Source of the DNA: Thunnus maccoyii
Lineage: Eukaryota; Chordata; Actinopteri; Scombriformes; Scombridae
Reading direction: 5' to 3'
Assembly: GCF_910596095.1 (NCBI RefSeq)
Contig: NC_056548.1
Location: 10,627,151-10,691,150, forward strand
DNA: 64,000 nt
Below, piece by piece: positions 1,901-51,805 of this stretch (position 1 is the first letter of the stretch; every line of letters starts with the position of its first letter). Position numbers and translations under genes: made by a program. The notes under the pieces are model-generated. The model had not been told where the DNA came from. It worked only from the letters and a program-made list of their open reading frames with translations, and did not search any database.

Positions 1901-1915
1901 GAAAACTGCATCAGG

Positions 1916-5737: not shown

Positions 5738-5745
5738 CTTTGCAT
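5738..5745 (+). promoter_or_regulatory. octamer-like element of the third V
   Basis: CTTTGCAT, 7 of 8 matches to ATTTGCAT, about 105 bp before the leader ATG at 5848. Confidence 0.35.
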
Positions 5746-5847
5746 CGTCAGCTGATCCTCCAGTGAACTGAGAAGGTTTATAGTCCTGTGAGTTCAACAC
5801 TGCAGGACTCAGATCTGTCAGTCAACACAGCAGAAAGCACAACTACC

Positions 5848-6321
5848 ATGACTCTCATCACCATCCTCATCTGGACGCTGGCCTGCTGCTGTTTTACAGG
5901 TTTATTCACTCAGCAACATTTCAAACATGATGTGTTGCCTTTTCTGTCATTTATTTCTGCTGATAAATGAAAGATTTGTTTCTGTCTGCAGGATGCAGCG
6001 GTCAGGTGACTGTGACTCAACCTCCAGTAGTGACATCTACTCCAGGATCCACTGTCACTCTGACCTGTAAAATAAACCCGGCTGTTCATAGATATAGTGA
6101 TGGAGATTATGCTATGATCTGGTATCAACAGATATCTGGACAGGTTCCGAAGCACCTGTTGAAATATGTTAGCTCTCGTGTTGTATCAACAACACAAGGT
6201 CGGTTTAGCTTCAGTGGAAGCGGCTCTGACTTCTCTTTGACCATCAGTGGAGTTCAGGCTGAAGATGCAGCAGTTTACTACTGTCAGAGTACAAATCAAA
6301 TAAACAGTGCTTGGGTGTTCT
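5848..6321 (+). CDS. Ig light-chain V segment (kappa type), complete
   Basis: Complete germline V segment. Leader exon 5848-5899 encodes [17 protein letters not shown]; the donor GTTTAT is weak. The intron is 5900-5991 and the V exon 5992-6321. Both core cysteines are present (VTLTCKI and VYYCQS), with an extended CDR1, FR2 [15 protein letters not shown] and FR3 [16 protein letters not shown]. It lies on the far side of J, again in opposite orientation, so V-J joining inverts about 1.2 kb. It is the only V in the window whose leader, both cysteines and RSS are all visible and intact, so it is the best candidate for a working segment. Confidence 0.92.
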
Positions 6322-6349
6322 CACAGTGATTTGTAGTCGTACAAAAACC
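6322..6349 (+). other. 12-RSS of the third V segment
   Basis: CACAGTG (6322-6328), 12-bp spacer, ACAAAAACC (6341-6349). Spacer and nonamer are identical to those of the first V. Confidence 0.95.
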
Positions 6350-14335: not shown

Positions 14336-14407
<72 letters not shown>

Positions 14408-15602: not shown

Positions 15603-18600
15603 TTAAAACAAGACAGTCGTTACATGAGCTCGGAATTTCTCTGTTGACCTCAAGGCCGGATAAGCCGGAGCCAGAGCCGGAGCCGGGGCCATATCCGGAG
15701 CCGGATCCGGAGCTGGATCCGGAGCCGGATCCGGAGGCCCTGGAGACTGCGAGGCCTGCTCAATTTCCCGCAGTTCTTCCTCCTCCAGGGGGAGACAGAA
15801 GTTAGTAGGGTTCTTCTGAAATATTTAAATATTCTTCTGTTACATTTCAGTCTCAAAAAGTCAGAAAACAAAACTTTGTTTATTTTATAATTATTATTAT
15901 TTTGTTCTTGTCTGTTTTGGTCGTGTTTTTTAATCATTTATGAAAACTAGAGAGAGTAAAAACGTAGACATGGAGACTTTGTTTGTTTCTGGAGGATTCT
16001 GATCTTAGAGGATTTAGACTTTTGGCAATGACTTTGAGTTTATAAAGGTGACAGCGAGACTGAAGCTTAAAGGGTCAGTCGACTATATTATAAAATAACT
16101 CACACTGCTCTAGATATATCTAGACATGCAGATGCACATGCAATCATACTGTGCAAATTTCCCTGCACTTTCATGTTAATACATCTGTTCATCAATAGTT
16201 TTCATACATGAAGTTACAATGAGAGGACTTTATTTAATTTCTTCTTTTGTTTTTAGTGATTTGGTATGGAGTAAAAGTAAAGACTGAGTACTGAATCAGT
16301 TGAATATATTCAGTTGTTTTGAATTTGTAAGCAGTTATTGAGCTCAATTTAAACCCAATAATATTAATTGGCTAAAAAATAGAATTACGATGGAGTTGAA
16401 AGAATGGCTATATGTTTGTGTTGCTTTCTAGGTCTGTACAGTTGCAGCTCCTTTACCTCGTTGCTTTCCTCCAGCGCTTGCATGATCGATGCCACCACCA
16501 GGTTCACCAGCACGAACTGAGCCATTATTACAAAGCTGGTGAAGTAGACTGGTGAGACCCATGACAGGTAGCTCACACAGTCGTCACCTGCGTGACATTC
16601 CCTCAGCGTGTCCTTGAGAGACATAGAGCAAAATTCAGAAAGGAGAGAGCAATACTGAGACTATATACTGACTATAATATATTGGTTTGATTCATTACTG
16701 TGTCCTTTATAGTTAGGACATGTCTGAGTATGCATACCTTCATAATCCCACTCCAATTGTCTCCCGTGCAGACTTTATAGAGTGTAAGCAGAGCCATCCC
16801 GAAGTGCCTGAAGTTGGCATATCGATGTAAGCCCAGGCACGGGTTGTCTTCAGTGCATTCTGATCAACACAGCGGCACACAACACAGACATTTATTTTTC
16901 TGCTCTGTATACATGTTGGTTTCAACCACAACAAACAATACGTTTAAAACAAACAGTTTTAAACGTATTAATACTTTGTTATCTCTTATCACATAGCCTG
17001 ATCTGGGTGCTGGGAGAGTAGGCCTATAGTATTTATCCCAATTCAACTAAGTTATAGTCCACTATGATTTAAACTTTAGGTTTGACGTTAAGGGTTTTCT
17101 CGTTTCCTTGGCAACAATGTCAAAACTGGCATCAGCTTTGGGACCATGATCCTTCGCAGTTAGCCTATGTGTATCTGTTCACTTTGCTAGCGGTGTTACT
17201 GACCTAGCTTGCCGAAGAGTTCGACTCCTAAGGCAGCGTAGATGAAAAAGAAGAATGTGAAGAGAAGACAAAGATTTCCAACCTGGAAGCAAAATACATG
17301 TTAGATCCTCTGTGCAACAATTACTACAATGTAGATACTTTGAAGAGACTGTGGCCTTTAATGTAGCTCAGCTGAATGAGAAATAAAGCCTTTACTTCTA
17401 ATTCATACTGTTTTCTAAGCATATGAAAGTATTTTTAGCATTTCTGTTTTCTATCTGCTCTCATTTGTTCCCATCAGAGACTCATCAATAATGCTTTATA
17501 GCCTCCTGAATTTTGAGTTGGTAAAAGAAAAATCAGGTCCTGTCTGAAGTGTTTGGTCTTTATTAGTTTGCAGACTTAATAATACAACTGACTGGTGTGC
17601 ATAACAAAGAGTGTGCACATAGAGACACTTCAGGGTCAGAATCTGCATTCTGTAATGTGGGCAAAACTTTTAAAATTCATCAATTCGTGCTAAAATCCAG
17701 CAGTGGCTAACTGCTTATCCTTTTGCAAAACAAAACCTTCATATTCACTTTACATACATATAACAAATCACATATAAGACAAGAAAACAAATTCAACCCC
17801 ACAGTGTGTTTACCTGTGACAGTGTCTTGATAACAGTTTTCAGCAGAACTCTTATCTTTTTTGCCTTCAGCACTGAGGAGAGACACAGGAGCTGTCGTGA
17901 ATACATAACTTTGTGTGCAATACGTGCGTACTTCACACACTCACTCGACTATATATTTGTCACACACAGATACCTTGAACTAAAAAGGTTTAGTTTTGTT
18001 GAATGTGTGCATACCTTGTGCTAGTCTGAGCACTCTGCAGACTCTAAGGATGCTGGGGTTGATGGGAATTGCATCTGCCATCTTCATCTCTGTGAAAATG
18101 ATGCTGATGACGGAGACCACGACTATAGCGACGTCTAGCAGATTCCACCTAAACACACATGCAGACGTATAATGTAACATTTTAGGGTTAGGGTCACAAT
18201 ACCTAACAGGCAAATGCAAATTAAGAGATTCAATTCTCTCTAATTCTAGTGTGTTACCTGTTTTTAATGAACCTCAGTGCACCGAACGCCACAATCTTCA
18301 GCAGGATTTCAGCGATTAGAATGGCAGTGAACACATAGTATGAATACTCCATCAGCTTCTCTACATACTGAACACACAGACACACACATTTATCTCTATC
18401 TGCTCACAGAGTAGATGCAAATTTATTTCTTGTGGCAGTTATCCTCGACTCTGAATTAAATTTTAAAAGTCATATCCACGACGTTACAAAGATAGCTTTT
18501 TATCATTTAAGAAACATTGCAAGAGTAAGACCCTACCTTACTTTGTAAGATGCCAAGAAACTCACTCATGTCTTTGTTTTTTCACGCTAAGATTATTGTA

Positions 18601-19322
18601 ATGCACTTTATACTGATTTACCCAATAAAACCATTGATACTGCAACTCGTTCAATACTCAGAAGCAAGAATTTTAACAAAACTAGGAAAAGGGAACATAT
18701 TACACCAGTATTAGCGTCACTGCATTGGCTACCTGTAATGTTGAGGATAGATTTTAAAATTCTTTTACTTGTTTTTAAAGCCAATAAAGGTCAAGCACCC
18801 TCATATCTCTCAGATTGCTTGTCAGAGTATGTTCCAAACCGTTCGCTTAGGTCGTTTAACACTGGCTTGTTAAATGTGCCACAAATAAAATGCAAAAAGT
18901 ATGGTGAGGCAGCTTTTTGCAGCTATGCACCAATGATCTGGAACAAACTCCCACCACATATTAGACAAGCATCCTCTGTTGATATTTTCAAGAAGCAACT
19001 CAAAACTTATTTTTATGGTCTTGTTTTTAATTAAATCAACCTTTTATTTGCTCTTTACTGTTATCAGCTGTTTTTAGTACCTGTATTATCTTTCTTATCA
19101 CCTGATGATTTTACCTCTTTTTATCTTCGTAGTTTTTTATTGTTTATTGTGTTTTTTTCTTTCTTTTATTATTTTTAAATATCTGTTTTTTGTTTGTTTT
19201 AATACCTTTTCTGTAAAGCACTTTGAGCTGCATTTTATGTTGTGAAAGGTGCTATATAAATAAAGTTTATTATTATTATCATTATTATTATGAGCTTGCA
19301 ACACTTGTTGACAGTGACAGTG

Positions 19323-19359
<37 letters not shown>

Positions 19360-19516
19360 ATTACCTTCGGTTGGTTATAATGTTCAAACGCCATAATCAA
19401 CACACTGATGATGATGATAACAGTCATGAAGAGGTCCAGGAAGTCGCTGGTACACAGAGTGTGAATAGACTGACGCAGGGGTGAGTAGTGTGCGTAATAA
19501 GGCGCCTGTTCAGGAT
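15603..19516 (-). CDS. Cav3-like channel: domain IV and C-terminus exons
   Basis: Exons: 19365-19516 (S1), 18258-18367 (S2), 18015-18148 (S3-S4), 17814-17872 (S4-S5), 17204-17282 (S5), 16738-16859 (pore TGDNW), 16457-16612 (S6, MQALEESNE), 15603-15782 (tail). S4 reads [16 protein letters not shown]; the fourth family arginine is Gln, and the S4-S5 stretch is about four residues shorter than in mammalian Cav3. The tail exon adds only 59 residues: an acidic EEELREIEQ, then PDPA repeats and a Pro/Ala stretch, then a short unique end. Mammalian Cav3 tails run to several hundred residues. Confidence 0.88.
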
Positions 19517-22500
19517 CTGGAACATGCACACACACAGAAATATATATCAACAATGGATAAAATGACGATGTGTAATGTGAAATTAATCTCTAATAGTGAC
19601 AAACCCACAGAGAATTATCACACACTTCCCTGCAGATCTACTGGGTATTTGATTCTTTTGCAGCTTTACTGTTTGTAGTCACTCTCACTACTTGCATGGA
19701 TGTGTAAACAGGCTGTTTGTGCACAACTTTTTAATGTGATAATATGGCAATAGTGTTTTTACAGTTACAGAAACAGAGCACTAGTGTGAATAAGTGTCTT
19801 TTGAATTTTAAATATTATATGTGTGGTGTGTTCTTTTCTGAATGCACAAATATGAACTTACTTAATCAGTCTCCTCATTTTACTCCAGGTAAAAAAAGCA
19901 AGTGTATTTCCCAAAATATTAAAAACCAATGTAGATTTCTGTGGATGGATGGTAAGTGGGAGATTAATTTGGTTGTATCTTGTTTCCAAAGATTTCAATG
20001 AATGTTTGAGGAAGGGAAGTCTGCAGTCATGCAGTTACATGCATCAGAGTAACGTAACCAACACCTTTGTGATCAGTCACTGTTTGTGTGACCAAGACAA
20101 TCTTTCTCTTTTGTTTTTTAGGTTCTGAAAGGAAGCTAAAAAAAAAACAAACTACCAACCAGCACCTCTGTTGGTCTGGTCTTCCACTATTTCTTCTTCA
20201 TTGGCTGGTAACGCTTCATCTGTCTTTTGCTTGTTCATACACTCGTGGAAGGTCTCCACCATCACCCCGATAAACATATCCAGCAGAAAGATGCTCACAA
20301 TCATGAATGAGATGAAAAAAACAAGCATCCATCTGTTGTAGTTCCTCACAGGCTGAAAAGAGAAGAGAGGAGACATCAGGTTATATTTTCTTGTGTGCAA
20401 GACATTAAACAAATTTACTACACTACAAAACAGATTGTGCATTTAATAAATCTCTCTGCATATTAACATTGTGCTTGCTGTAACCATTCCAATAATGTGT
20501 CTGCATTCAAATTAGACGTGAAGTGTTATGGAAATGTTACTAAGTCCTCTCAACTCAGGTTGCGGTTGTGACTGTGTGAAAGTGACTCGGTGGGCTTTTC
20601 AAACAGGAGACTGACACATAAAATTGTGCATTTATGGAATTATGTGCACATTAATATTTGTCAATATTAAATTATCGCTGTTTAGTAATGCACCTTTCAC
20701 CATCCCCTCATATTCTAGAGTTTCTAAATAAATCCCAGTGCCATTGTTCCCTGTCATGTGCATGACACTGTATAAACATCAGCCATATTGCTAGAAACAA
20801 TACCTGTATGTCTACTCCTACAGCATCCAGTCCATCATACATGATGTTGACCCAGCCGTCCTTAGAGTACATTACAAACAAGGACAACAGAGCCTGAATG
20901 GGAAACAGAGAAATAACTGTTAAGTCAACACACAGGGATTTTCCAGGTTCTGAGTTTGGTTAAAGCACACAAATTCAGTACAGTTAGCTGAAGAAACCTC
21001 TTGCACTGCTCAATTCTCTTAATTTTTTTAGTTATTCTAATAACAGAACATGTTTACAATTGTTTAATCTGCATCTGGATCCAAATCTACACAATCATGC
21101 ATAATCATAATAATGCTGACTTGACGACATTGATGTTTAGGAGAATATCTAAAACCTTTATATAAGACGAATGGTGCAAAATTTCAAGAAAGTCACACTC
21201 ACGGCCACCAAATTATAGAGAAATACATTTATCATAGTGCTTTAGTGCATCATTATAAGATTATTCAGAAATGATATGTGCATGTGTTCTCTAAATTTGG
21301 TTGTAACTGCAAAAATTATTTAAGAGTTATGGCAGTTTACATGAAGAATGTGATAACCACTTATAACACAATGTCATATTAAAAAAAACAAAAAATGTGG
21401 GGAATCATTTAAATATATAATGTACCACATTTGGTGAGGATTACGTGATTATTTTTTTTATAGGTGGGGTTTTGAAAAAATGTTAAAAAATGAAAAATTA
21501 AGTGGACAATCTAAATTTTACTGCAATCTGTTGAGCACTTTTTGAGATGACATGCTATGCAATGCCAGCAAGTGATTCTCACTCTGTAATAATCTGTGGT
21601 TATCAATAGCAAATGCACTTTCATTCTTTAACAGTGACTAGTTTGGAGCCAATCGTGGTCCAATGTTCAACTTACACGTGATATGGAAACTTGAAGCCTC
21701 CAGAGCATAAACACTGAGAATAAACTGTGAAGTGAAGTAGGAGACATCTTGTGTCCGGCAGTTAAACTTCTGAAATGAACATTATTTGCATATTTGTAGA
21801 TTCTGTCATTTTAAATGAGGGAGAAGGAGTAGATGTCGTTTCAAGGATTTTAACGAGATAACTGACCCTTTTTTTGCGGAAAAACCATATTAGACACAAA
21901 TTATTATTCAAAGTTCATTAAGGCCAATTAATCAGGAAGAACAGGTTCATGTTTGGTGTAAATGGGGCCTTCCATATATATGCTTAGCATTTAACATTTT
22001 ATCTCGAAACTCTTGAACCTTGAAGTGTAGAAACTACTTTTTTTCTTGATAGTTTGGTCCAACCACAGGTGCCCAACCATGGCCTGTCATATAGGCCACA
22101 CCAGTTTCCACCTACACATTTTCCACCATTTGGAATTTGTAGCAATTTTTTTTTTTCTTCTCCATGTGTAAGCTACAAATTTAATCTAATGCTCTCAAAA
22201 TTTGGTACATAACCCAATTTGACTGAACCTGTAAAAAGGAAAGTGGTTTATTTTTTGGTATTGCATAGGCTTATTATTTTTCTGATATGACCTAGCCAAA
22301 TTCTTGTAAGCATGCGTATTTGACAAAAAATGCCATAATCCTTGATTGAGTGCATCATTCAACTGCAATATTTAGATAAAATGTGCGGTCATTCACTCTG
22401 TACAATCCTTCAAATGTTGATGGTGTGCTAGCAAAGGAGATTGTAATTTTCTGTTTGGACAACCATTAAAGATCAGAACATTTCCTGCTCTGTAAATTTC

Positions 22501-25400
22501 TTTACTGTATGTTATGAAGAGGGTGATAACAGACAGAGAAAGATAAAAAATACATCAATACAACTATAGTACTATAAAATACAATTATACAGAGCATTTA
22601 TATTTAAACAGGGGGTGCTGAGTCACAGCAGTGTAGGAGTCTCAGTTGAGTGTTGACTCATTCTCCCTCTTGTCCTTCTTCCTCCTCCTCAAACCGAAGA
22701 AGTGGAGGATTATTTTCCACACTGAGCGCCTCTTTTTTTTCTCCAGGACCTTCTCCTGAGAAACTTCCTCCTCTACCAGCATTTCAACGGCCATTACAGC
22801 AACATGGGTTTTATCCTCCTGCTCCTTCAGCTTCTCTCTGAGCCGGGCATTTTCTGCCTGGAGGGCCTGACTTGCTTCTTACTCAGCTAGGAGCCGAGTG
22901 GCAAGCTCAAGGCTGGTGGAGGTCTGTTCCTCAAGTCTTGTTTTCAGATTCTCCCATTGCCGCTCCATGGTTTGACGGAGGGCCTCCGGCTCAGCCCTTA
23001 GCTTGTTGAGCATCTCCTGGTCCTCGCTCACCCTTTCAGCATGAGACTTCTTCTCTGTCTCAAATAGTTCCTGATGGGTGTCTCTCTCCTGCTGCAGCTG
23101 ATCACTGAGCTTCACATTGTCATCTTCCTTTATGTTCCAGTAATGTGATTACTTATTAATGTCTTGTCGAAATCAAATTTGCATATTGTCCATCATTCAT
23201 CATCTTTGTTTATTTAAAAAAAAAACACCTTAAACACTGATAATCTCCAAAGTACAATGTTGTTCAACAGCATTAACGATTCATAATTACTAAAAAGTCA
23301 CTATATATAGAATAACTGACTCATAACAGACATGCAGGTGACATGATGTCATAGCAGGTGTAATTAACAGTGTCAATGATTGCTGCGTCCCATTTAATTT
23401 GGCCAGTTCCAAATTAGTTTGGCCAGTATTTGCTTCCCGGGACACTGAACTATCGTTAATGTTGTCACCACCACCTGTGGTCTAGTCATCTGGTGGGGGT
23501 CCTTGATGAAAAATAACAACATTTATAATACGTGTTTGTGGTGTTCAGACGTTTATGGTGGTAGATGTATTTCTTACCTATCATATCAATAAACTGGTGT
23601 TTTACTGTGATGTTTGGAGACTACCAAATTATCATTATACTGAATATATGTATATTTTTTGTCTGTGGACTGACACTTAAATCGGTGATGGCCACTAAAC
23701 ACTGAATTGTCGAAGTGATTGTCAACAAGTCAGTCAGTGAACAAGTTAATTCTTGCAAAGTCAACGTGGGTGGGGGTTGGGGGCAGCACCCCCTCCTGCT
23801 GACAGAACGCTAACTAGGTCAGTGCTCTAATTTGAGTCTCAGTGCTGTCCTCTGGAGAGCCACAAGGGATACAATTACTCTCCCACTATCCCATTCATCT
23901 GCGACTCTATGGCGCAAACATTTGTGTGTTCGTGTGAGTGTACACGGCAGCATAACAGCATGTCTTTTTTTGATCCACCTTGAAGTGGGTAAAATGAGGA
24001 CATTGAAAATTCTCATTGTTCTCAAGTTATGATGAGGGAGAGAGACTAAAAGACTACAATTCAATTTAGGGTTTTCTTTTCAAATATATTATATTATATA
24101 CTTTTTATACTGCACCAAATTTCAACAGTGCACTCTCTGGCATTCCCAGCAATGCACCTGCCAAGTGTGAAGTAGATCGAATGAACTGCTCTCGAGATAT
24201 ATGAAGGACAAACATACATACAGAGATTCCTTGCTTCATATAGAGAGATAGGAGATACGACATTGGCCTGAATACAATAAAATTCTAAGTAAAAGAGGAT
24301 AAACTTCTGCAACACCAGCTTTTGGATAAAAACATTGAATTAAACAGTATGGATTAATCAGTATGAATTAAAGTATGCACAGTAGGCAGATATACAGTCA
24401 CAAAAACTACAGTATAGCAACAAACAGTAAAACAACAAATCAATAGAATACCTTTCTTAAATAGAGTTTTTAAATAAAATATGGTAACAGTATGCCAACT
24501 CAAAAGCCCCCAGTATCTTCAGATACATTTTGTGAGTTTTTATCATAGACTGTATAAAAATATGGACGTAGTTACCGTGACATCACCCGTTGGTTTCTGA
24601 AGAGCGGTTTTGAAGCTTAAAGCGAGCCGCTCCAGCCATCGCCATCTTGGCAGTGCATGACACTGCCTAACTCCCAGCCAATCAAAAATGGGCAAAGAGG
24701 CGGGCCAAATGACTGAAACAAGCCACCTAGCGGCTGGTGGACCTGTCACTCAAAGCAGCCATGTCCTTCATTATGCATAACTCTACGGCTTAATAAAACT
24801 TAAGTTATAAGTTTTATAAAAAAAATTCACCCCCCGTACAGTTGTCATGAACGGGGAAATTAGCTATAGAGACCAAGACCGTTTTTTGTACCAGGCTGTA
24901 ACCATTATTTCTGCTGTAAAGTTGGGCATTTTTACATGGGGAATGACTCGCTTTTGGAGCCAGCCTCAACTGGTCATTTAAGGAACTGCAGATTTTGGCA
25001 CTTCTGCATTGCTTCATTTTATAGCCCCAGAGGTTGCTTTGTTTTTATACGTAGTTTTTAGCTAGTTAATTTTGTGTGGGCAAGAATGCTAATCGCCTTT
25101 CTTTCTTCCTGCATCCCTCTCCTTCCCTCTCCCTTTCTCACCCTCCGTGTTGGTGCCTACCTGAAGCAGGTCGTCAAAGTTGTATGTCTTCCGTACCCAG
25201 CGATAGTTGGCCGACAGGCAGTCAGTCTTGTTGGTGATGGCACGTGTGTCCTGTCCGACACAATAGTAGAACTTCCCTTTGAACAGCTAGAGTGTTTGTG
25301 TGAGATAAAGACAGAGACAGAGTCAGGTCGTTTTTGTCATTGTCTTCACATCATCTCAATTGCATCAAAAGTAGTGGGCCAGCTGTGAACTTATCACTTG

Positions 25401-25437
<37 letters not shown>

Positions 25438-26481
25438 TGTGTATGTGTATGCATGCCATCTCACCTGCACACCAAGGATGCCAAAGAAAAAGAAGAAGAC
25501 GATGCAAATGAGAACAATGTTCCCAATGGGTTTAACCGAGGCAATCAGGGCCTCCACAGCCAGCTTCAACCTCGGGGCTCGCTTGATCACCCTGGAACAC
25601 ACAAACACAAACAAAAAGATGTGTGTTAGAACTAGCATATGTACTTACAGACACAAGCACAACTGACCGGAATATGAAATAAAGGTGGGATGCTTACACA
25701 CACGCACAGTACATGCACATATAGACTAGTATCAACTTACACAAAGATAAAACAAACATACACACATAAATAAATTATGTACCTCAGTGGGCGAAGTGCA
25801 CGGAGCAGGCGTAGAACTTTCACCATGCCCAACACGTTATTTTTGTCCGTATTGACCAGAGAGACAAAGATGTGGACTACAGACAGAATCACTAATGAGC
25901 CATCCATGATATTCCAGGAAGACTTGCAATAACTCTCCTTCCCAATCACCACACCGAGAGCTAGAACCTGGTTTTGAAGCACAACATGTCAATACAAGCT
26001 CACACTACTATTAATTAATTGAAACACTACTTCAGCTAAAGATCTGAGCTAAAAAAATTGATTTTAAGGTAGACGATTACTGATCCAAAATCATAACAAA
26101 ATTAAAGAATTGTTAAAAAGACTTCTTAATGGGAACAGGGCCCGTTCAACAGTGCTATTTATCAGTAAGAATATAATGTCATTTCCCAATGACCATATAC
26201 CTCCAAGGTTAAAAAAGAAAACTGATGTTTACCTTAAAAAGCATCTCTACGAAAAACACAGCAGAGAATACGTAACGGGACATTTTCAGGATCCATCGCT
26301 CCTAAAGGGCAGAATGAGATTTATCTTTAATATGTGTTTTGTATTTCATATAATCAAACTCACATACATATTATTTGTTCAAAGAAAATGCATAATATCC
26401 AGTTTGACTGTGCATAGTTTGTGTGTTTTAGTGTCTTTCAATTGTGTGGCCTCACATGTGCAGTATATGTGTGTGCATGTG

Positions 26482-26519
<38 letters not shown>

Positions 26520-26739
26520 TTGTGTGTGTGTGTGCCTCACCATTCTGTGAGGGTTTACTGTAAATCTGTTTCCAGAGTAACAGCAGGTTACATGTATGTG
26601 TGGCTCACCATGCTTTTGGGGTCTATTCCAGGCCTCTCCATAGCAATGGTGACACAGCTTAGGAGAATGAAGAGCAGAACCATGTGGTCGAACATCTTGT
26701 GCGAGATCACATGTTGGCAACAGTTGCGGAACCTACACA

Positions 26740-26778
<39 letters not shown>

Positions 26779-29700
26779 CAAAATGGTGGAGGCCAACGGT
26801 GCTCTGCAGCTGCATATCACTCCACAGCTCTATTTGCTCCACTTTTGAGTGATCCAATCATATCAGAGGGATTTGATCAAATCAATCTCATACCTAAATC
26901 CCATCCACATATTCAGTTTCACTCGGAAATAGAAAAAAAAATGTTATTGAAGATAAAGACACTCTAACTGCCATTTCACATTAAAGACAGGAGAAACACA
27001 AAGGTGTGTGTGTGTGTGCATGTGTGTTTGTGTTCATGACACTTACCTGTTCTGTGGAGACAACACATAGAATGACCACTCTTCATGTGCTTTGCACCAG
27101 CGGAGTACTTTCTGGATCCATGGGAAGTTACGCATCAGCCGCCTCTCCTTATCCAAAGCATGGACAAAATAAAGGTTTCAACACACCAGCAAAATGTTGC
27201 AGATTTTTTCTTTAATCCCAAAGCAACCTTTATTGCATCACTTACTGCTGCAAAAGTGTAAAATTAACTCTTGGAGAGTCCAAAATCAGACTTACAAAAC
27301 TATCACTCTAAGGAACTTACATTGTCTTTGTTTGCAGGTGCAGAGTCTTCCTCAGGGGCTGCGTTAATCATGGTGGATTCACTGGGCACAGAGTCAGAGC
27401 AGTGTTGCTCGGGTCTTGACGGGCTCTGGAACAACATGAAATATATTATGGGTACAATAACGTCAGTCTCAACACTGTAACTATAATCTCAACAAGGGAG
27501 AAGTAAACAGGTCACAAGTAATATCTCCATACAGGATACAGGGTACACATTAATTCAGATTCTGAATGGATAATTTCAAAGCAATGATTCTTAGGAACTT
27601 ACATCTGTCTTGTTGTTATCTGTCTGTGAAATGTCATTCTCAGGAGGTAAACTGATTGCAGTAGAGCTGGTGGGCCCACGGAGTGAGAGAGAGGAGTCTG
27701 AGGAACTGGAGGATTGCTAGAACAACAGGTAATAGAGTTCAGCATGGGTGTGTATGCAAGTGTTTGTGTCAGTGTGCTGTTCATTCAATTATAAAACATG
27801 TAGCTGTTGGATTATTGATTGTATGTAAAACTAAGGCAGAGATCCCTATTCATTTGCCTGATAGCTCTTAACAACAAGGGCAAAGTAAACAAGTCTCTCA
27901 ACACAAGTAATATCTCCATACAGGATACAGGGTACACATTAATTCAGATTCTGAATGGAGCATTTCAAAGCTATGATTCTTAGGAACTTACATTTTTCTT
28001 GTTATCTGTGGGTGAAAAGTCTGTCTCAGGAGGTAAACTGATTGCAGTGGAGCTGGTGGGCCCACGGAGTGAGCGAGAGGAGTCTGAGGAACTGGAGGAT
28101 TGCTAGAACAACAGGTAATAGAGCTCAGCATAGGTGTGTATGCAAGTGTTTGTGTCAGTGTGCTGTTCATTCAATTATAAAACATGTAGCTGTTGGATTA
28201 TTGATTGTATGTAAAACTAAGGCAGAGATCCCTATTCATTTGCCTGATAGCTCTTAACAAAAAGGGCAAAGTAAACAAGTCTTTCAACACAAGTAATATC
28301 TCCATACAGGATACAGGGTACACATTAATTCAGATTCTGAATCCATAATGTGGAAGCTATGATTCTTAGGAACTTACATTTTCCTCATTGTTATCTGTCG
28401 GTGAAATGTCTGTCTCAGGAGGTAAACTGATTGCAGTGGAGCTAATGGGCCCACGGAGTGAGCGAGAGGAGTCTGAGGAATTGGAGGAGGTCTGGAACAA
28501 CAGGTAACAGAGTCTAACATAGGTGTGTATGCAAGTGTTTGTGTCAGTGTGCTGTTCATTCAATTATAAAACATGTAGCTGTTGGATTATTGATTGTATG
28601 TAAAACTAAGGCAGAGATCCCTATTCATTTGCCTGATAGCTTTTAACAACAAGGGCAAAGTAAACAAGTCTTTCAACACAAGTAATATCTCCATACAGGA
28701 TACAGGGTACACATTAATTCAGATTCTGAATCCATAATGTGGAAGCTATGATTCTTAGGAACTTACATTTTCCTCATTGTTATCTGTCGGTGAAATGTCT
28801 GTCTCAGGAGGTAAACTGATTGCAGTGGAGCTGGTGGGCCCACGGAGTGAGCGAGAGGAGTCTGAGGAACTGGAGGATTGCTAGAACAACAGGTAATAGA
28901 GCTCAGCATAGGTGTGTATGCAAGTGTTTGTGTCAGTGTGCTGTTCATTCAATAATAAAACATGTAGCTGTTGGATTATTGATTGTATGTAAAACTAAGG
29001 CAGACATCCCTATTCATTTGCCTGATAGCTCTTAACAACAAGGGCAAAGTAAACAAGTCTTTCAACACAAGTAATATCTCCATACAGGATACAGGGTACA
29101 CATTAATTCAGATTCTGAATCCATAATGTGGAAGCTATGATTCTTAGGAACTTAAATTTTCCTCATTGTTATCTGTCGGTGAAATGTCATTCTCAGGAGG
29201 TAAACTGATTGCAGTGGAGCTAATGGGCCCACGGAGTGAGCGAGAGGAGTCTGAGGAATTGGAGGAGGTCTGGAACAACAGGTAACAGAGTCTAACATAG
29301 GTGTGTATGCAAGTGTTTGTGTCAGTGTGCTGTTCATTCAATTATAAAACATGTAGCTGTTGGATTATTGATTGTATGTAAAACTAAGGCAGAGATCCCT
29401 ATTCATTTGCCTGATAGCTCTGAACAACAAGGGCAAAGTAAACAAGTTTCTCAACACAAGTAATATCTCCATACAGGATACACATTAATTCAGATTCTGA
29501 ATGGAGAATTTGAAAGGTATGATTCTTAGGAACTTACATTTTTCTTGTTGTTATCTGTGGGTGAAAAGTCATTCTCAGGAGGTAAACTGATTGCAGTGGA
29601 GCTGGTGGGCCCACGGAGTGAGAGAGAGGAGTCTGAGGAACTGGAGGAGGTCTGGAACAACAGGTAACAGGGTCTAACATAGGTGTGTATGCAAGTGTTT

Positions 29701-32700
29701 GTGTCAGTGTGCTGTTCATTCAATTATAAAACATGTAGCTGTTGGATTATTGATTGTATGTAAAACTAAGGCAGAGATCTCTATTCATTTGCCTGATAGC
29801 TCTTAACATCAAGGGCAAAGTAAACAAGTCTCTCAACACAACATCTCCATACAGGATACAGGGTACACATTAATTCAGATTCTGAATGGAGAATTTGAAA
29901 GGTATGATTCTTAGGAACTTACATCTTTCTTGTTGTTATCTGTGGGTGAAAAGTCATTCTCAGGAGGTAAACTGATTGCAGTGGAGCTGGTGGGCCCACG
30001 GAGTGTGAGAGAGGAGTCTGAGGAACTGGAGGTCTGGAACAACAGGTAACAGAGTCTAACATAGGTGTGTATGCAAGTGTTTGTGTCAGTGTGCTGTTCA
30101 TTCAATTATAAAACATGTAGCTGTTGCATTATTGATTGTATGTAAAACTAAGGCAGAGATCTCTATTCATTTGCCTGATAGCTCTTAACAACAAGGGCAA
30201 AGTAAGCAAGTCTCTCAACACAACATCTCCATACAGGATACAAGGTACACATTAATTCAGATTCTGAATGGAGAATTTGAAAGGTATGATTCTTAGGAAC
30301 TTACATCTTTCTTGTTGTTATCTGTGGGTGAAAAGTCTGTCTCAGGAGGTAAGCTGATTGCAGTGGAGCGGACTGGCCCACGGAGTGAGAGAGAGGAGTC
30401 TGAGGAACTGGAGGTCTGGAACAACAGGTAACAGAGTCTAACATAGGTGTGTATGCAAGTGTTTGTGTCAGTGTGCTGTTCATTCAATTATAAAACATGT
30501 AGCTGTTGGATTATTGATTGTACGTAAAACTAAGGCAGAGATCTCTATTCATTTGCCTGATAGCTCTTAACAACAAGGGCAAAGTAAACAAGTCTCTCAA
30601 CACAAGTAATATCTCCATGCAGGATACAGGGTACACATTAATTCAGATTCTGAATCCATAATTTGGAAGCTATGATTCTTAGGAACTTACATTTTCCTCA
30701 TTGTTATCTGTGGGTGAAATGTCTGTCTCAGGAGAAGAGCTGGTTGTAGTGGAGCTGGTGGGCCCACAGAGTGAGAGAGAGGAGTCTGAGAAACTGGAGG
30801 AGTGCTGGAACAACAGGTGATAGAGCTCAGCATAGATGTGTATGCAAGTGTTTGTGTCAGTGTGCTGTTCATTCAATTATTAAACATGTAGCTGTTGGAT
30901 TATTGATTGTATGTAAAACTAAGGCAGAGATCCATACCTTCGCCTGATAGCTCTTAACAACTATGCCCACAAGTACGTTGAGGAGCACATGTTTTCCAAA
31001 AATAATGAGAGCCACAAAGTAGAGAGCGGACCATGGTGAGGTGGCAGTCATGGCATTGTATAGGACTAGATTCCAGTCCTCATGAGTAAGAATCTAGATT
31101 AATGAGATTAAATGAAAGAGAGTAACATAGACAGAGATCGATGCACATATTGCAAAGGATGAAATGCATAAAATAGGGAGTCAAAAACTAACCTGGAATA
31201 CAGTGACCATGGACCAGAGGAGTGAGTCGAAGTTTTTGCGGTCAGTGATGGTGTCGCCGTGCACCGTCTTGAAGCTAAATTGGCATCCAAACAGGTGCAT
31301 ACCCAGTACGCTGCAAAGAAACAAGAAAATGCAGTCAGGATTATTTAAATGCAATAGATCATAATAATTATCTACTGCGATTCCCTGTGACTTTACAAAT
31401 GACATGTAGAGCAGATAGACATGTAGAGAAGAGCGATTTGTGTGTGTGTGTACATACCTAAAAGTAAAGGTGGCAAATAGCAGCAGCATGCAGAGCGCGG
31501 CTGCCTTCTCTATGGTCCTTTTCAGCACAAGCAGTTGTTTCCTCAGGTAAGGGAGGAAGTGAACTAGCCTCACAAACCGTAGCAGGCGAAATGCACGCAG
31601 CGCTGACAACCTGCCATCAGCTTTAGCAATTATCTCCCACAAACTGAAAACCACAAAAACAACCACAATTTTGGTACGCTGTTGGACAACTTCAAAGTTT
31701 TCGGTTGCATTTGGCCAATTCTGTCTGAAAACTGTAACCATGTATGTAGCAAACTGTATATTGACATTTTGCTTGGAGTACTGGCATGCACTGTACTCCA
31801 ACCACTATTACTAAAGTCTCACATCGGTCAGTCAGTGCCATAGACCTCCAGTATGATACAAAGTTTGATACCATGTTTATTTTACACAATAACCTGAACT
31901 GTTTATGTGTACCAATGTCAAAAAATAAAATTTGTGGCTCCTGTGAGAGGTGAGTGTTTAAAGTTTGTCAGCATATAGCCGGTGCAAGTACTTTTCTACT
32001 TTCAAACAATGAAATACGGATGAGAATTTCAATGGAAGCTAAAATTACAGGACAAAACAATATGCTGAGGTCAAAGGTCAGACTGTGTGGGTTCGTATTA
32101 CCTGATGATAACGATGACAAAGTCAAAGATGTTGTTTTTATCTTTAAAGTATGACCACGAGAGAGCCATCAGCTTTAGGACCATCTCCATGAAAAATATA
32201 ATGGTGAAGATGATGTTGCTGGTCTTTAACACATCTGTCAACACCTTAGGCTGTAGGGAGAGAAGAAGAAAAAAGGACAGAGGGGCAGAGAGATACTGAT
32301 TAAGAGAGAGATACATAGCTAACACAGCTAGCACACAGGAAGGAAGCCTAACAGCCTGAAGCTTTTTAAATGTGTTTGACAGCTGAAAACATAACCTGCA
32401 ACACACACAGCTGTCTTTTGATGATTCACTATAACATTTTTGTGTGCTGTTTCATATGACATCTGTAAAGAGAGGACTGTCGGCCTGTTTTAAAACTTTT
32501 TTAAAAGAAGCATTAGGACAGAATTTGGAAAGTATCTCTCTTCATCCCCCACATAACAAAATACTGAAGCCCAAACGCGATTTTCTTCTACTGTCACTTG
32601 AGATGTGTAGATCTGCAAAATTTGCTGAATCAGAGGCAAAGTGGTTGTGGAACCATATTCATTGTTACATCCTGCAAGAGTCATTTTACCTTTGAACCTT

Positions 32701-35700
32701 TCAGCTCACCAGGGAATCATTTAGCTTGCACATCTGAAATTTACAGAAGCCTTGAGAGGGCAAATAGTAAGCAGACAGAAACACTCCCCTCCATCTCACC
32801 TGCTTATGGTGCTCTATGGCTATTGTGAGAACACTGAGTAAAACAGCCAACATGATTGCTCGGTCGAAGAATTTACTTTTAACGACCCTCTTGAGTTTTT
32901 CCTTGGCTTGTTTCCAGTACAGACTCAGTATGCTCCTGTTCTCGTACCATTGCCCGTGACCTTCAACCTGAGGGGAAGATAGGGAGGTCATTTAATTGGC
33001 CTCTTGTTGCTGAGGCAACACTGCTGCTGGTGGTGGTACTGCAGAAAGTTGTTTACTAGTCTCACCGATGAGGCATTGTTCCATCTCTCAGGGTTCACCT
33101 TGTTGTTCCAAAGTCTATTGGTAAAAGGAAAAACAGTATGAATAACAACTAATAACTGAAAATCCCTCAAAAGATTAAATTAAGACATAATGATTTGTTC
33201 CGGCAGTGTGCATGTGTGTGTGTTAATGTGTGTTTGCTTCTGAATGCATCTCTAGGAAATTGGTTCTCTACCCTTTTGGGGTCACATTCAGAAAGACAAA
33301 ATTACTGGTGCAAAGTAAATGCTCAAAACAAAACATATCTAGTTATTCAACCAAGAGACCTATAAAGAGCTCAAGACACACACAGGAAGACCAGTGAGTA
33401 CATTGAACAAGAGCTTCATTTAAACTTCAAGCTTTGTCCTGACACTGTATTTTTGACAGTGATATAAAAGTACTACCATGTTACCAAATTACAAGAGTAA
33501 TACCATAATACCAAAAAAAACCCCAAAACTCTAAAGTCATGCTTAAACTTGTGTGAGTGAAATTCACTTTCTCTACTAGGATACTTCCACCCATTGTCTG
33601 AAAATAAACTAGTACACTTAAAGCTACACAATAAGAAAGCATTTACATCTGTTTCATCATGACAAGTATGAAAAGCACATTTTGGATGACTGATTCGCAG
33701 GAGGAATGCATGTGATGTTGTTGAGGTGTAGGAGATTAAAAAAAATGAACTATATAGTATCTGGTATCTATATAGTATCTGACCTGTTGTATATACAGGA
33801 GGTGAAGCTGATGAACTTTTCAAAGAGATTCTTGACAGACAAGCCGGAATGCGGCTCCTCTACCTCCCTCTCCATGGTCTCTGAGAACTGGGTGGCGATG
33901 ACAACAGCGCACACGTTCATCATGACAAAGGAGCCCATCTGGTTAGGGGAGTAAAGAGTGGCTATTTAGAGGGCGCAAGCCCAATACTGGTGCATGTAGC
34001 ACTGTGCCCAATATTTTGGACCCAATAAAAACTATAATAAAAAACTCAAAGGCAGTTATGTTGGCAATTCTACTGAAAATTTACCAGTATGGAAGAATAC
34101 CAAAACCTAGGAACCCAGTCAAATATTAATGTTGTAAATTAAAACAATAAACATACACAGGTAGGTACTTACAATAGTGACCAATGTAAAAAATACAAAA
34201 CTCCAGAAGGAGTTTGCATCCATAACATAATACATGATCTCTGTCCATCCTTCCAGTGTGACAACCTGGCGGTAGAGAGAGACAGAAAGTGACATATTAC
34301 TATGTAGCAATGTTCTCCTCGCTTTTTATTGTGCTTTATTATGACAATAAAATGAAAGAAAATAACATTTTAATAAGCTCTCAGTTAAAAAATATGGTGA
34401 ACTATGGAATGATGAATCAAAACTCCAGAACAAACAAAAACACAATACTGTGCCCTAAAAAGTAATGATGGGTTCCCCAGCCAGAGGAAAGCATTGACTC
34501 ACATGTGACTATATGATAGATCATAAATAGATAGATGATAGATAGCAATTCCTTACCACATCCTCGTCAAAAACAAAATAAATTTATGTCTAACAAGTGC
34601 ACTGTGTTTCCTCACAATTCAGACTGTTACCACATGCTACCATAATAAACTGTCAAAATACAGTTTCATGAGGCGTCTCCCTGATATTCTTAACTCCCTG
34701 CGCTCCGTGTTTTTGCAAAACGTACCTGGAAGACGGCTATCCAGGCATAGCCGATGTTATCAAAATTGATAGCTCCCATCTGAGGGTTGAGGTCCCCGGC
34801 GCGACAGACGTTGTAGTACAAGTTCCAGTTTACACAGCTGTTGGTACTGGCCCCAACCACAGCAGGGACTGGCTCCTCTGTAGCTGAATCATGGTGGTGA
34901 GGGTCCAATGAGCAGGTAACCCCATCCTCGGTGTAAGGCGGCACATCACGGCAGCGCACCATCCCATTCTTGTCATCAGGTGAACACACGAATGGACTTT
35001 TTTCACCATGCTTGGTCACATAGTATGGACTTAGGGAAATGTTGTATTTTCTGGATTAATAAAAAGAATGATAAAAGCTTGATTACAGAATTGACATACT
35101 ATAGATAGACACTCATTACACAGTAGTGATGTTTTGAGTCCATCATGGGGTATTTTGTGCTGTAGGTTGAGAAAAAACATAAGTTGCATACAGTAGGTCA
35201 TATAAGCAATACATTGATATACAGTTGACTGAAAAATTAAGAAATGTTAACTTATAAATGCATCTCAAACCCTGTAATGCTTACTCAGTGATTTTTATTA
35301 CTGTCATGGTATAGTTTTAACTATATTGCTAGATTTCCTTACAAGTCTTGAAAAGGTAACAGTCACAACGCAATCAAATCATAGTAGAACTGAAACAATT
35401 AGATGATTAATTGATTAGTCAATCAATAGAAAATTAATTGGTAACCATTTTGATGACTAATTAATTGTTTAGTTTAAAAGTAATTTCTCAAGCAAAGTAT
35501 TTGATGCTTCTAGAAACACAAACATGTGGATTTGCTGTTTTTCATGGTTTTATGTAGTAATAGAATTAATTGGTTGGATAAAACAAGCAATTCCACTGGG
35601 TTCTGTGATTGGCATCTGTTTTTACAGTTTTTCTGATATTTTAAAGAGGAAACTATAATCAGTTAATTGAGATAATAATTGGCAGATTATTCAATAATGA

Positions 35701-38279
35701 AAATGACTGTTAGTCGTGATCTCTCAAATCTATTTGTGCTACCTCTAGCCCAGAGAGAAATGGGGAGAAAAAATCAAATACTGGAAGAGCAGACCAAACA
35801 AATTCCTTACGTGGGGATAACCTCTCCCGGGAAGCAGCGGTTGCGCAGCTGCCCTGCCCACATCTGGACTCCCACAACGCCAAAGATGTGGATGAAAAAG
35901 ATGTAGAGGACGAGAACATTTGCAAGCATGGGCAGGGTGTCGACAATCACTGTCACCAAGACTCGCATACCTACACAGGTGAACACAGGAAGTAATTATG
36001 CCATCAGAATTGACTGTTTTGACCAATACTATTGTCACACACACACAAACACAAGCATATAGCACATATGCATGTTTGAATTTAAAATTCCTGATAGAAA
36101 GTTGACTTTTGCCCTCTTTTTCGAACTCTACTGATCTTACAACCTCTTTATGGCAAGTAATGGACAGTGGTTGATAATACTTTTAGTGACAGCTTCATCC
36201 TTAGAGATTTGAACTCACAGCTTCCCTGCGGCTGGTCTTTATCTCACCACATGTGTTCACCATCCAGCCTCAATTGTCAGTTAGATTTTGCCTCATCATT
36301 AAAATGTATGTTTATAGAGCTAGCACTGATGTTTGTAATGATGTTGCATTGGATGGCATTGTACATCAGGGTGGACAACTTAACAGAAATACTCCAAAAT
36401 GAAGACAAAAGAGTTAAATCCACACCATTCTGACACAGCTTAATAAAGCTTTATGTCTTTCCCATCATTTGGTATTTCAGTGTACAGTATATGTTCAGAT
36501 TGTTCTTACCAATGCCAGATTGTTAATGTATATTATGAAGATACAGAAGTGGACAGAAAATAAATTTGCCTGCCTACGTATATCAAGTCAATGTCTCATC
36601 AAGACCTGCAAATGTTCATATGTGGACTTACTTGGTACTCTGCCAATCAGTCGCATTGGCCTGAGTGTTTGAAACATGTGTAACCCCGACAAGATGCCAA
36701 GGGAGGCCAGGATATGATCCAACACCCTACAGGGACAGTTGTAGATAGAAACATGAAGAAATTGCTTTAGTTTGTGTTCTTTCACCTACAAAAATAAATA
36801 TGTACACACATCCTAATAGTCTGATCATATAAAAGTCATGAGAGGCTGATGGTTCAAAAATGTCTTCTCTAAAATATAGTCAAAACGTCAGACATAAGCT
36901 GTCTAAACATTTTTTTTTCTCCAGTTTAAAACTAAGCCGTGTTTGTGTATGTGCTTGTATGCTTATGTATGTATGTCTATCTGCAGATGAAAGAGACAAT
37001 AGAGTGAAAGGCACTGTGGGATACTAACTCTCCAGAGATGATGAGGAAATCTAACTTGTTCCAGTTGTTGCTGAGGTAACTCCCTTTATGACCAAAGACC
37101 CCCAGGGCCACTGTCTTGATGATCATTTCCAATAGAAAGAATGCAAAGAAAAAAGAATCCAATGCCTGGCCATACATGATTTAAAAAAAAAAAGAAACAC
37201 AATTAAACATAAAGTAGAAATGACAACACTTCTGTTAACATAGGTGTGCAAAAGTACTCTGGTTTAGCGGTATGCAAATGCTATCTGTGACAATATATAA
37301 CAATATCTACTACTACTGAAATATTCACACCACAACACAGGTATCTAGCCTGCAGCAATTACAGACACTGCTGTAAACAGTGTTAAACGGGAAATGCAGC
37401 ATGACTCAGGAAAATTGTACTGGCCATGTGAGCGAATACCCTCTCAATATTATATCTAAAGAACGCATTTATGTCACAGTAAATGTACATTTCACTGCCA
37501 GTACCCACTTATGAGAGTGCAGGTGTCACACTGACCTGTAGGTTTTCACTCATCTCTCCACAGGGCTTATACATGCCCAGAGGCACAAAGTTGAGCAGGA
37601 CCATCAGTAAAGATGCGTAATCAAAAAACGTGGAGGAAGGGGTTAAGGTCAAAACACATAGCATGCAATTACAGTCATACAAGTCATCAACAACAGAGAA
37701 CAGGAACTTATAATGACAGAATAAACACAATGTTTTAATATGCCAAACAGACGCATACAGTACCTGAAAAAGAAAGACATGGGGGGAAAGTGTGCTGCAA
37801 ATTACCATTTTGCAAAAAAATGTTTGTGTGCTGCAGTTGATCTGAAATAAGACCTGATTCCAGGCAGTTTAAGACATGCAATTTCTGTTGCAAAACAGAT
37901 GAAACAAACAATACAGAGCATAAACAGTGATAAAGGATTGTATGTGCCTTCTTAAAAATGAGTCCCTTTATCCATTTAAAATTGTTTAACACTAATATCA
38001 AGTCAGGCTTAAAGGGTATTTAAATAATTATGATCATTGCACATATTTAGTATTAGAAGGTGTCAGACAGGGATAGATGTCCAGCACTAAGGAAGGATAT
38101 GGCTTACTGACCATGAACAGACACCAGTTACGTGGCCATGTGGTTTGTTTCAAGAAGGAGAAGACCACAGGGGCCAGGGCTGGGTATGGCAACTTTCCCT
38201 CATCCGTGGAGTGAAGTCCTTGTTCTGTATTGAAAGGCTGTTCCCTCTGCTTGTCCTTCTGTCTCTTACAATCAGTCAT
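15603..38279 (-). CDS. T-type (Cav3-like) voltage-gated calcium channel alpha1 subunit, divergent
   Basis: Pore-forming alpha1 subunit with four six-helix domains. I can thread 40 coding exons with consistent phases from ATG at 38279 to TAA at 15603-15605: 5,187 nt, about 1,728 residues if every linker repeat is used. Mammalian Cav3 channels have well over 2,000. Pore residues are TLEGW (I), THEDW (II), SKDGW (III) and TGDNW (IV): the E-E-D-D set of T-type channels, which conduct low-voltage-activated Ca2+ current. Family strings include [24 protein letters not shown] and VGVDIQ. It departs from known Cav3 in several ways: a short I-II linker, a repeat-exon II-III linker, a short C-terminus and a weakened domain I S4. 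An exon 5' of 38304 may hold the true start, since the frame stays open across the CCCCAG acceptor there. Which Cav3 paralogue it is, or whether it is a fish-specific one, I cannot say. Confidence 0.9.
18430..19292 (+). mobile_element. L2-type LINE, 3' fragment
   Basis: Intronic in the channel gene, opposite strand. In broken frames it reads [13 protein letters not shown], then [29 protein letters not shown] and [14 protein letters not shown]: the C-terminal end of an L2-clade reverse transcriptase. The 3' end has the L2-type tail CACTTTGAGCTG, GGTGCTATATAAATAAAG and an (ATT)n run. It is truncated at 5' and carries stops, so it is dead. Confidence 0.85.
19327..19358. repeat. (TG)n microsatellite
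   Basis: TG dinucleotide run directly beside the donor of the domain IV S1 exon. Confidence 0.95.
20166..27147 (-). CDS. Cav3-like channel: domain III exons
   Basis: Exons: 27047-27147 (pre-S1, [11 protein letters not shown]), 26609-26732 (S1), 26233-26301 (S2), 25783-25967 (S3-S4), 25465-25591 (S5), 25161-25286 (turret), 20804-20893 (pore SKDGW), 20166-20352 (S6 and start of III-IV linker). S4 [16 protein letters not shown] keeps the positive-charge ladder. The last exon ends in acidic [11 protein letters not shown] with donor GTGCTG, chosen because it gives the phase needed by the next exon. The 27147 acceptor (GATAAG) is weak but in phase. The 4.3-kb intron 20894-25160 holds a coiled-coil pseudogene and a MITE. 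Confidence 0.87.
22642..23149 (-). pseudogene. coiled-coil protein pseudogene fragment in a channel intron
   Basis: Read on minus, the frame encodes a heptad-rich chain ([20 protein letters not shown], then [16 protein letters not shown], then [11 protein letters not shown]), meets TAA at 22879-22881, and continues in the same frame for about 78 codons ([15 protein letters not shown] ... [18 protein letters not shown]) to a TGA at 22642-22644. The basic/hydrophobic end hints at a membrane-anchored tail. No introns, and a single in-frame nonsense codon: this suggests a processed or duplicated copy that died recently. I do not recognise the parent. It could instead be part of a mobile element. 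Confidence 0.55.
24546..25037. repeat. fish non-autonomous repeat in a channel intron
   Basis: Begins AGACTGTATAAAAATATGGA, followed by GACATCACCCGTTGGTTTCT and, further on, GCCATCGCCATCTTGG. I recognise this as a high-copy fish interspersed repeat. Boundaries are approximate. Confidence 0.6.
25401..25434. repeat. (GT)n microsatellite
   Basis: GT dinucleotide run between the S5 and turret exons of domain III. Confidence 0.95.
26482..26519. repeat. (GT)n microsatellite
   Basis: GT dinucleotide run, interrupted near 26520. Confidence 0.95.
26739..26775. repeat. (CA)n microsatellite beside an exon
   Basis: CA run that starts about 7 bp from the acceptor of the domain III S1 exon. On the coding strand it is a (TG)n tract and forms part of the polypyrimidine region. 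Confidence 0.95.
27321..30804 (-). repeat. tandem array of duplicated linker exons (II-III loop)
   Basis: Nine ~385-bp units, each with one exon. Exons in coding order: 30691-30804, 30305-30415, 29923-30033, 29538-29651, 29156-29269, 28767-28880, 28378-28491, 27992-28102, 27603-27716; then a diverged tenth, 27321-27425. Sizes are 111 or 114 nt (105 for the last). All are phase 0, with TTGTTCCAG or TTGTTCTAG acceptors and GTAAGT donors. Typical content is [20 protein letters not shown] followed by PPE, a two-residue variable spot, and SPTDNN plus KKN or EEN. The encoded chain is low-complexity, Ser/Thr/Pro-rich and probably disordered and phosphorylatable. Because each exon is a multiple of three, any subset can be spliced in without a frameshift. 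The exon at 29156-29269 has TTAAGT in place of GTAAGT. Intron parts are as similar between units as the exons, so the expansion looks recent. Confidence 0.9.
30938..32967 (-). CDS. Cav3-like channel: domain II exons
   Basis: Exons: 32800-32967 (end of linker and S1), 32102-32250 (S2-S3), 31458-31643 (S4-S5), 31193-31310 (S5-P), 30938-31093 (pore THEDW and S6). S4 reads [18 protein letters not shown] with the regular arginine spacing; the last family arginine is His. VLGMHLFGC and [10 protein letters not shown] are classic Cav3 pore-turret strings. The last exon ends KSYQAK with donor GTATGG, and decayed copies of its end occur in every unit of the array that follows. Confidence 0.9.
33066..33114 (-). 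CDS. Cav3-like channel: short I-II linker exon
   Basis: 49-nt exon between domains I and II, phase 2 in and phase 0 out, reading [17 protein letters not shown]. Acceptor CCAATAG, donor GTGAGA. It has no similarity I recognise to the long mammalian I-II linker. Coding assignment rests on splice sites and phase. Confidence 0.65.
33784..38279 (-). CDS. Cav3-like channel: N-terminus and domain I exons
   Basis: Exons in coding order: 38101-38279 (N-terminus to S1), 37536-37629 (S1), 37029-37165 (S2-S3), 36632-36726 (S3-S4), 35811-35970 (S5), 34726-35050 (S5-P loop, cysteine-rich), 34173-34265 (pore TLEGW, start of S6), 33784-33938 (end of S6, ATQFSET). Phases agree at every junction. The S4 exon reads [19 protein letters not shown]; by alignment to mammalian Cav3 the first two gating arginines are His and Gln. 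The pore-proximal turret keeps the T-type cysteine pattern (FVCS, VRCRD, VTCS, NSCVNW, NVCR). After S6 only about 31 residues follow in this exon. Confidence 0.88.
35390..35722. repeat. MITE-like element, family with GCAACAATTAG ends
   Basis: Begins AACTGAAACAATTAGATGAT and ends near AATAATGAAAATGACTGTTAG. Relatives in this window are about 47798-48092 and 50685-50895. Confidence 0.6.
37630..38100 (-). other. U12-type AT-AC intron of the channel gene
   Basis: On the coding strand the intron begins ATATCCTT (38093-38100), the full U12 5' splice consensus. It carries CCTTAAC (37642-37648), a U12 branch-point core, about 12 nt before an AC end at 37630-37631. No AG exists near the end that could act as a U2 acceptor. 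Splicing here gives VSKP-FFDYAS, which aligns residue for residue with the Cav3 S1 start. Confidence 0.9.

Positions 38280-44695: not shown

Positions 44696-51805
<7,110 letters not shown>

Follow-up and report, generated by a model that had tools for sequence, protein, structure and literature searches.

A tandem array of ten related exons in a T-type calcium channel gene of Thunnus maccoyii: a putative II-III linker

Introduction

Tandem exon duplication is known from voltage-gated calcium channel (Cav) genes: the 13 of human and fly together contain 20 tandem exon substitution events, and ten of these are independent; the human events named lie in CACNA1A, B, C, D and E, and Ca-alpha1T, the T-type gene of the fly, has one (PMC9741552). 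Longer rows of exons are described for the PEVK region of titin, a muscle spring with a repetitive region encoded by serial exons, where duplication makes the row longer or shorter and the number of exons spliced in varies (PMC6469411), and for the chicken BG genes, in which 13-36 exons per gene, each of 21 or 24 nt, stand in rows and encode a cytoplasmic tail (PMC4046983). Here we describe a 64,000-nt stretch of Thunnus maccoyii DNA (NC_056548.1, positions 10,627,151 to 10,691,150; hereafter the window) in which ten related exons lie in tandem at the place where a T-type (Cav3) alpha1 gene has its II-III linker. We propose, with moderate confidence, that this linker is encoded by the array and that most of the copies are probably spliced in series.

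The II-III loop is a regulatory site of Cav3 channels. In Cav3.2 the PKA site Ser1107 is required for inhibition by Gbeta-gamma and Ser1198 is a CaMKII site, and the ROCK-dependent inhibition of Cav3.1 and Cav3.3 acts via the II-III linker (PMC9913649). In mouse Cav3.1 the linker exon 14 is alternatively spliced, and the form lacking exon 14 predominates in the cerebellum (PMC2696442). Because the loop is a site of regulation, an array at this position would alter both the length of the linker and the number of its phosphorylation sites.

Results

Layout and splice sites of the array

Tandem Repeats Finder (TRF) reported an array with a period of 389 bp at 27513-30961 (8.9 copies, 93% matches), and counting from a breakpoint in the domain II S6 exon gave nine units of 382-389 bp in register (Table 1). 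This agrees with an initial annotation of the same DNA, which had described nine units of about 385 bp, each with a 111- or 114-nt open exon in phase 0; all nine exons were found and all were open. The range that it had given for the nine, 27321..30804, actually spans ten exons: the diverged tenth exon that it had seen to follow the others was present (105 nt), and its homology to them had been missed. All ten lie on the minus strand between the S6 exon of domain II and the pre-S1 exon of domain III, as annotated, and both flanking exons are in phase 0 where the S6 exon ends (30938) and the pre-S1 exon starts (27147). No further exon candidate was noticed between these two exons, a region in which no dedicated search was made.

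The ten array exons are all in phase 0 with an open frame and a length that is a multiple of three, so that, as previously claimed, they could be skipped or repeated without a change of frame. The expected AG acceptor was found at all ten, and a GT donor at nine. The GTAAGT donor that had been ascribed to every copy was present in eight of the nine; in E5 it reads TTAAGT, and reading through this dead donor leads to a stop after three codons. Eight of the nine copies E1-E9 thus keep both splice dinucleotides and are splice-competent on paper. The array donors (E5 left out) scored 5.7-8.2, and the 27 GT donors of the gene outside the array had a leave-one-out median of 8.3; the array acceptors scored 6.0-8.4, with a leave-one-out median of 7.3 for its own 27 AG acceptors. 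Because the exons all share phase 0 and a length divisible by three, and because their splice sites resemble those of the gene itself except at E5, we infer that the spliceosome would add most copies serially.

Table 1. Positions of the array, its exons and the channel gene in the window
Feature	Position	Strand	Remarks
T-type (Cav3) alpha1 gene model	16457..38279	-	29 exons; array and uncertain C-terminal exon excluded
Domain II S6 exon	30938..31093	-	donor GTATGG, phase 0; its 3' end recurs as relic in units 2-9
Nine in-register repeat units	27490..30958	-	counted from S6-exon breakpoint; units 2-9 open with donor-less S6 relic
E1, linker exon copy 1	30691..30804	-	114 nt; true 133-nt intron upstream
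E2	30305..30415	-	111 nt
E3	29923..30033	-	111 nt
E4	29538..29651	-	114 nt
E5	29156..29269	-	114 nt; donor TTAAGT, not GTAAGT; predicted splice-dead
E6	28767..28880	-	114 nt
E7	28378..28491	-	114 nt
E8	27992..28102	-	111 nt; private 3-bp deletion
E9	27603..27716	-	114 nt
E10, older diverged copy of linker exon	27321..27425	-	105 nt; donor 10-mer GTAAGTTCCT
Domain III pre-S1 exon	27047..27147	-	flanks array downstream

In a mutually exclusive cluster of the Dscam type, exactly one copy would enter each transcript. Double inclusion can be forbidden by exons whose length is not a multiple of three, by very short introns or by docking and selector pairing. Here the frame would survive double inclusion, since all ten exons are multiples of three, and the eight introns separating E1 to E9 (268-275 nt) exclude the mechanism of very short introns. 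Docking-RNA splicing found no support in the stretches tested: the duplex energies of three unique flanking stretches with one unit intron were no better than those of shuffles (166, 71, and 34 of 200 shuffles were as good), and the one unit intron tested for self-folding was also no better than shuffles. The copies are moreover nearly alike, so that choosing among them would alter little. We consider such a cluster very improbable, even though Cav genes often show substitution between tandemly duplicated exons (PMC9741552).

A repeat-assembly error could also have multiplied the copies, and the closest pairs of units do differ by few bases (U5/U7 by 6 of 389 aligned bases and U3/U4 by 7). No pair is identical, which argues against plain assembly duplication, although the copy number could still be mis-assembled. 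Private substitutions occur in every unit (alignment judged by eye), units 1, 4, 8, and 9 carry indels of their own, and the entire array of 3.5 kb fits inside one long read; an artefact is highly doubtful in our judgment. Queries with units 1 and 6 (E value <=1) found in the rest of the window only a 30-bp match at the E10 donor and short matches, the best other match being 36 bp at 81% (E value 0.02).

Identity of the channel gene

The channel model combined homology to a scaffold sequence with splice sites; intron 1 and the I-II linker were then corrected manually. It showed no stops or frame breaks across its 29 exons and 22 kb, with GT at 27 of 28 donors and AG at 27 of 28 acceptors, the remaining pair being the AT-AC of intron 1. 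A putative C-terminal exon near 15782 (minus strand) was kept out of the model. The open model is 1297 residues long without the array, 1671 with all ten array exons and 1633 without E5.

The selectivity filter of the model reads E/E/D/D (TLEGW, THEDW, SKDGW, and TGDNW), which is the rule for Cav3 channels. Four Cav3 sequences came out on top in the comparison with solved structures (1333-1450 bits), with 1450, 1381, and 1334 bits for Cav3.1, Cav3.2, and Cav3.3 (CACNA1G, H, and I), respectively; the next and best other Cav was Cav2.3 with 512 bits. Domain IV alone again placed Cav3 first (506-551 versus 279 bits). Judged from its sequence, this is a T-type (Cav3) alpha1 gene that looks intact, nearer to Cav3 than to Cav1, Cav2 or Nav, for which a low-voltage-activated current is a prediction only. 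The initial annotation had described a calcium channel and had missed the T-type class.

Intron 1 (window 37630-38100, minus strand) has AT-AC ends, the donor ATATCCTT, which we take to be a U12 donor, the acceptor CTCCAC, and CCTTAAC upstream of the acceptor. It is likely a U12-type intron; minor introns are mentioned for voltage-gated Ca and Na channel genes in published abstracts.

In the S4 of domain I (36632-36726, minus strand) two arginines of Cav3.2 are replaced by His and Gln, and in the S4 of domain IV (17814-18148, minus strand) Gln stands for one Cav3.2 Arg, followed by a 4-residue gap that may be an exon-boundary error in the model. The I-II linker in the model has about 81 residues (window 32800-33938, minus strand), which is short for a T-type channel. 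These substitutions in S4 and the short linker would favour a decaying or unexpressed duplicate, in which the array were the result of drift in a dying gene. The stop-free and in-frame exons and the nearly complete set of GT and AG sites in the model speak against decay, which appears quite improbable.

Origin of the repeat units

The 3' end of the S6 exon, GTTGTTAAGAGCTATCAGGC, recurs as a relic in units 2-9; four units hold it exactly, and the remaining four differ from it by one base. In these units the relic is followed by altered sequence without a donor; unit 1 holds the real end of the S6 exon and its donor. The join sequences were ...ATAGTTG-TTAAGAG in the S6 exon, ...CCCTTGTTG-AGATT behind E9, and ...CCCTTGTTG-TTAAGAG where two units meet. 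Together these three sequences point to a single event in which the S6 exon and the downstream intron were fused at a shared GTTG, giving a unit of about 387 bp. The loss of the donor, common to units 2-9 (8 of 8), most simply predates their multiplication. We read from these sequences that a 387-bp stretch, running from the interior of the S6 exon through its intron and the linker exon into the next intron, was tandemly duplicated at the GTTG microhomology, that the duplicated end of the S6 exon lost its donor, and that the founder unit later gave rise to all nine, which underwent exchange or conversion among themselves.

The mean intron divergence of 4.8% among units 2-9 supported the recent expansion by duplication that had been proposed. 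In the four-gamete test 168 of 351 informative site pairs conflicted, which corresponds to at least eight recombinations. Upstream of the exon, units 5 and 7 were near units 2-4 (3 differences in 156), and in the part downstream they were near unit 6 (1 in 119). Distance among units 2-9 grew with spacing, from a mean of 0.0435 at lag 1 to 0.0708 at lag 4. The units are recombinant mosaics, and the pattern is that of unequal exchange and conversion.

The DNA of E10 scored 8.6-10.3 standard deviations above dinucleotide shuffles against four of the nine copies, and its protein score against every one of the nine was reached by 0-5 of 1000 shuffles. By these alignments E10 is a homologous older copy of the same linker exon, and it derives from a still older duplication. 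E10 and the eight intact copies share one donor 10-mer, GTAAGTTCCT, even though roughly half of the coding sites in E10 are different from theirs (proportions of 0.56 at synonymous sites, pS, and 0.51 at nonsynonymous sites, pN), which suggests a maintained splice site.

Coding constraint among the copies

The comparison of synonymous and nonsynonymous divergence between copies, suggested with the initial annotation as a check, was run and showed no codon constraint, a result which that annotation had missed. The pN/pS among copies was 1.02 (95% bootstrap 0.51-2.41), variable sites at codon positions 1, 2, and 3 numbered 11, 10, and 9, respectively, and the 23 nonsynonymous and 7 synonymous changes matched the expectation without selection on residues. 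The probability that 30 changes create no stop in the absence of selection is 61%, a second frame is likewise open in E1-E9 (9 of the 10 exons), and the donor is dead in one of nine near-identical copies (E5). All of these results weigh against a serially spliced, coding array. Purifying selection on residues among the copies is not detectable; the ratio of nonsynonymous to synonymous rates (dN/dS) was 1.35 for E1 versus the rest and 0.83 for E10 versus the rest.

The array might instead be a passenger, produced by a neutral minisatellite-like expansion; most of E2-E9 would then be left out or spliced without pattern, and the linker would depend on E1 and E10 alone (73 residues). A pN/pS of about 1 with no bias in codon position, the dead donor of E5 and the high chance of escaping stops all agree with this. 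Against it stands that eight of nine copies retain both splice dinucleotides, with scores within the gene's own range. Weak evidence against it came from the indels, which were of 3 bp in both exon cases and not multiples of three in all four intron cases (Fisher p = 0.067, one 1-bp gap at the alignment end being dropped). Frame and splice sites look mostly kept and residues look free; this fits a disordered linker under low constraint, and a neutral passenger fits almost as well. We regard the passenger as unlikely, but as an account to be taken seriously.

Exon sites were more variable than intron sites (30/114 versus 43/275, p = 0.022; p = 0.084 for units 2-9 alone). Diversifying selection is not claimed from this, because the flanks beside the exon were also highly variable (10/36 and 10/40 sites), the synonymous distance was as high as the nonsynonymous distance, and the fixed differences that set unit 1 apart from the others were not significantly unequal between exon and intron (7/114 versus 8/273, p = 0.15).

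Composition of the linker

The ten array exons encode 374 residues, with 40% Ser plus Thr and 10% Pro, compared with 11% Ser plus Thr in the rest of the model, in line with the Ser/Thr/Pro-rich coding potential first reported for the array. As pattern matches only, Ser/Thr-Pro motifs occurred in 9 of 10 exons, [ST]xx[DE] in all ten and Rxx[ST] in 5. The first four array exons gave no PDB match at an E value <=1, and a Pfam search with all ten gave one match (E value 0.069, 13.9 bits, cut-off 25), which was taken as chance. With E5 skipped, the product would be a linker of about 336 residues, disordered and rich in Ser, Thr and Pro.

Neighbouring features

An open reading frame (ORF) at 22645-23148 (minus strand), in a 4267-bp intron of the channel gene, is rich in Glu, Lys, and Gln, looks coiled-coil-like by eye and has one in-frame stop; Pfam gave no match for either half. 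The window also holds three immunoglobulin V-set ORFs (plus strand) at 3-6326, with a C1-set ORF at 3881-4231 (minus strand), which appear to form a light-chain-like cluster adjoining the channel gene. Other features are a tetraspanin-like stretch at 10952-11140 (plus strand; 27.4 bits, under the Pfam cut-off of 32.1), a (TA)45 repeat at 14315-14404, an RRM protein at 51464-51802 (plus strand), presumably ELAVL-like, and a sodium:dicarboxylate symporter at 59654-59812 (minus strand). One 114-residue piece of domain III found no relatives in the collection viral_contigs and, in the collection genome_contigs, six pattern matches with 0 confirmed; the two collections comprise viral, bacterial and archaeal sequence and so have little bearing on fishes.

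Discussion

We favour a II-III linker encoded by serially spliced copies. Inclusion of the copies in mRNA, and steps of 38 residues in linker length, are plausible given the layout of the exons; skipping or allelic copy number would shift the length in steps of 37-38 residues. Since the Cav3 II-III loop is a site of regulation by kinases and Gbeta-gamma, additional copies would supply further phosphorylation sites and lengthen the tether. It is a speculative and rather doubtful extension that the linker acts as a fast-turnover exonic variable number tandem repeat, with copy number varying between individuals or species and splicing setting the number of phospho-repeats on each channel, thereby tuning gating or partner binding by 38 residues at a time.

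If serial splicing is true, a ten-exon array makes up nearly all of a T-type II-III linker and offers a natural titration of length and phosphosites, which would act in the loop to which PKA, CaMKII, and ROCK regulation map (PMC9913649). The array would also be a clean case of the birth of an exon array, in which an exon was joined to an intron at microhomology, the stray donor disappeared and the units multiplied with exchange.

In the open-access literature we found no paper pairing a T-type calcium channel with tandem exon duplication and none pairing a voltage-gated calcium channel with tandemly duplicated exons; among the matches listed there, by titles and the starts of abstracts, no report described a serial exon array in a channel linker. 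The initial annotation had held that tandemly duplicated linker exons are not a normal feature of Cav alpha1 genes. Duplicated exons are in fact common in these genes as substitutions, and what stands is that long serial arrays are absent from the section on Cav tandem exons in PMC9741552, where tandem duplication is described as one duplicate substituting for another.

Compared with the vertebrate channels Cav3.1-Cav3.3, the gene shares the four domains and the E/E/D/D filter and finds among them its best solved matches, but its I-II linker is short. In the solved Cav3.2 chain the matched blocks of domains II and III stand 242 residues apart (this may reflect an engineered construct), where the present gene has ten related exons, and mouse Cav3.1 offers a likeness in its alternatively spliced linker exon 14 (PMC2696442). 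The tandem exon substitutions of Cav genes, including fly Ca-alpha1T, likewise involve duplicated exons inside a calcium channel gene; those are mutually exclusive (PMC9741552), whereas here nine recent copies and one old copy lie in a linker without a detected domain. Titin PEVK differs in having more than 100 exons in human (112-224) and in that its splicing is documented and that of the present array predicted (PMC6469411). The chicken BG genes resemble the array further in that they recombine and vary in copy number, and differ in that their exons encode the coiled-coil tail of an immune receptor and that inclusion was compared with cDNA (PMC4046983). As in these two systems, the exons described here stand in tandem in the same phase, have lengths divisible by three and encode one repeat each, and the titin PEVK exons and the chicken BG exons are the closest analogues of the array.

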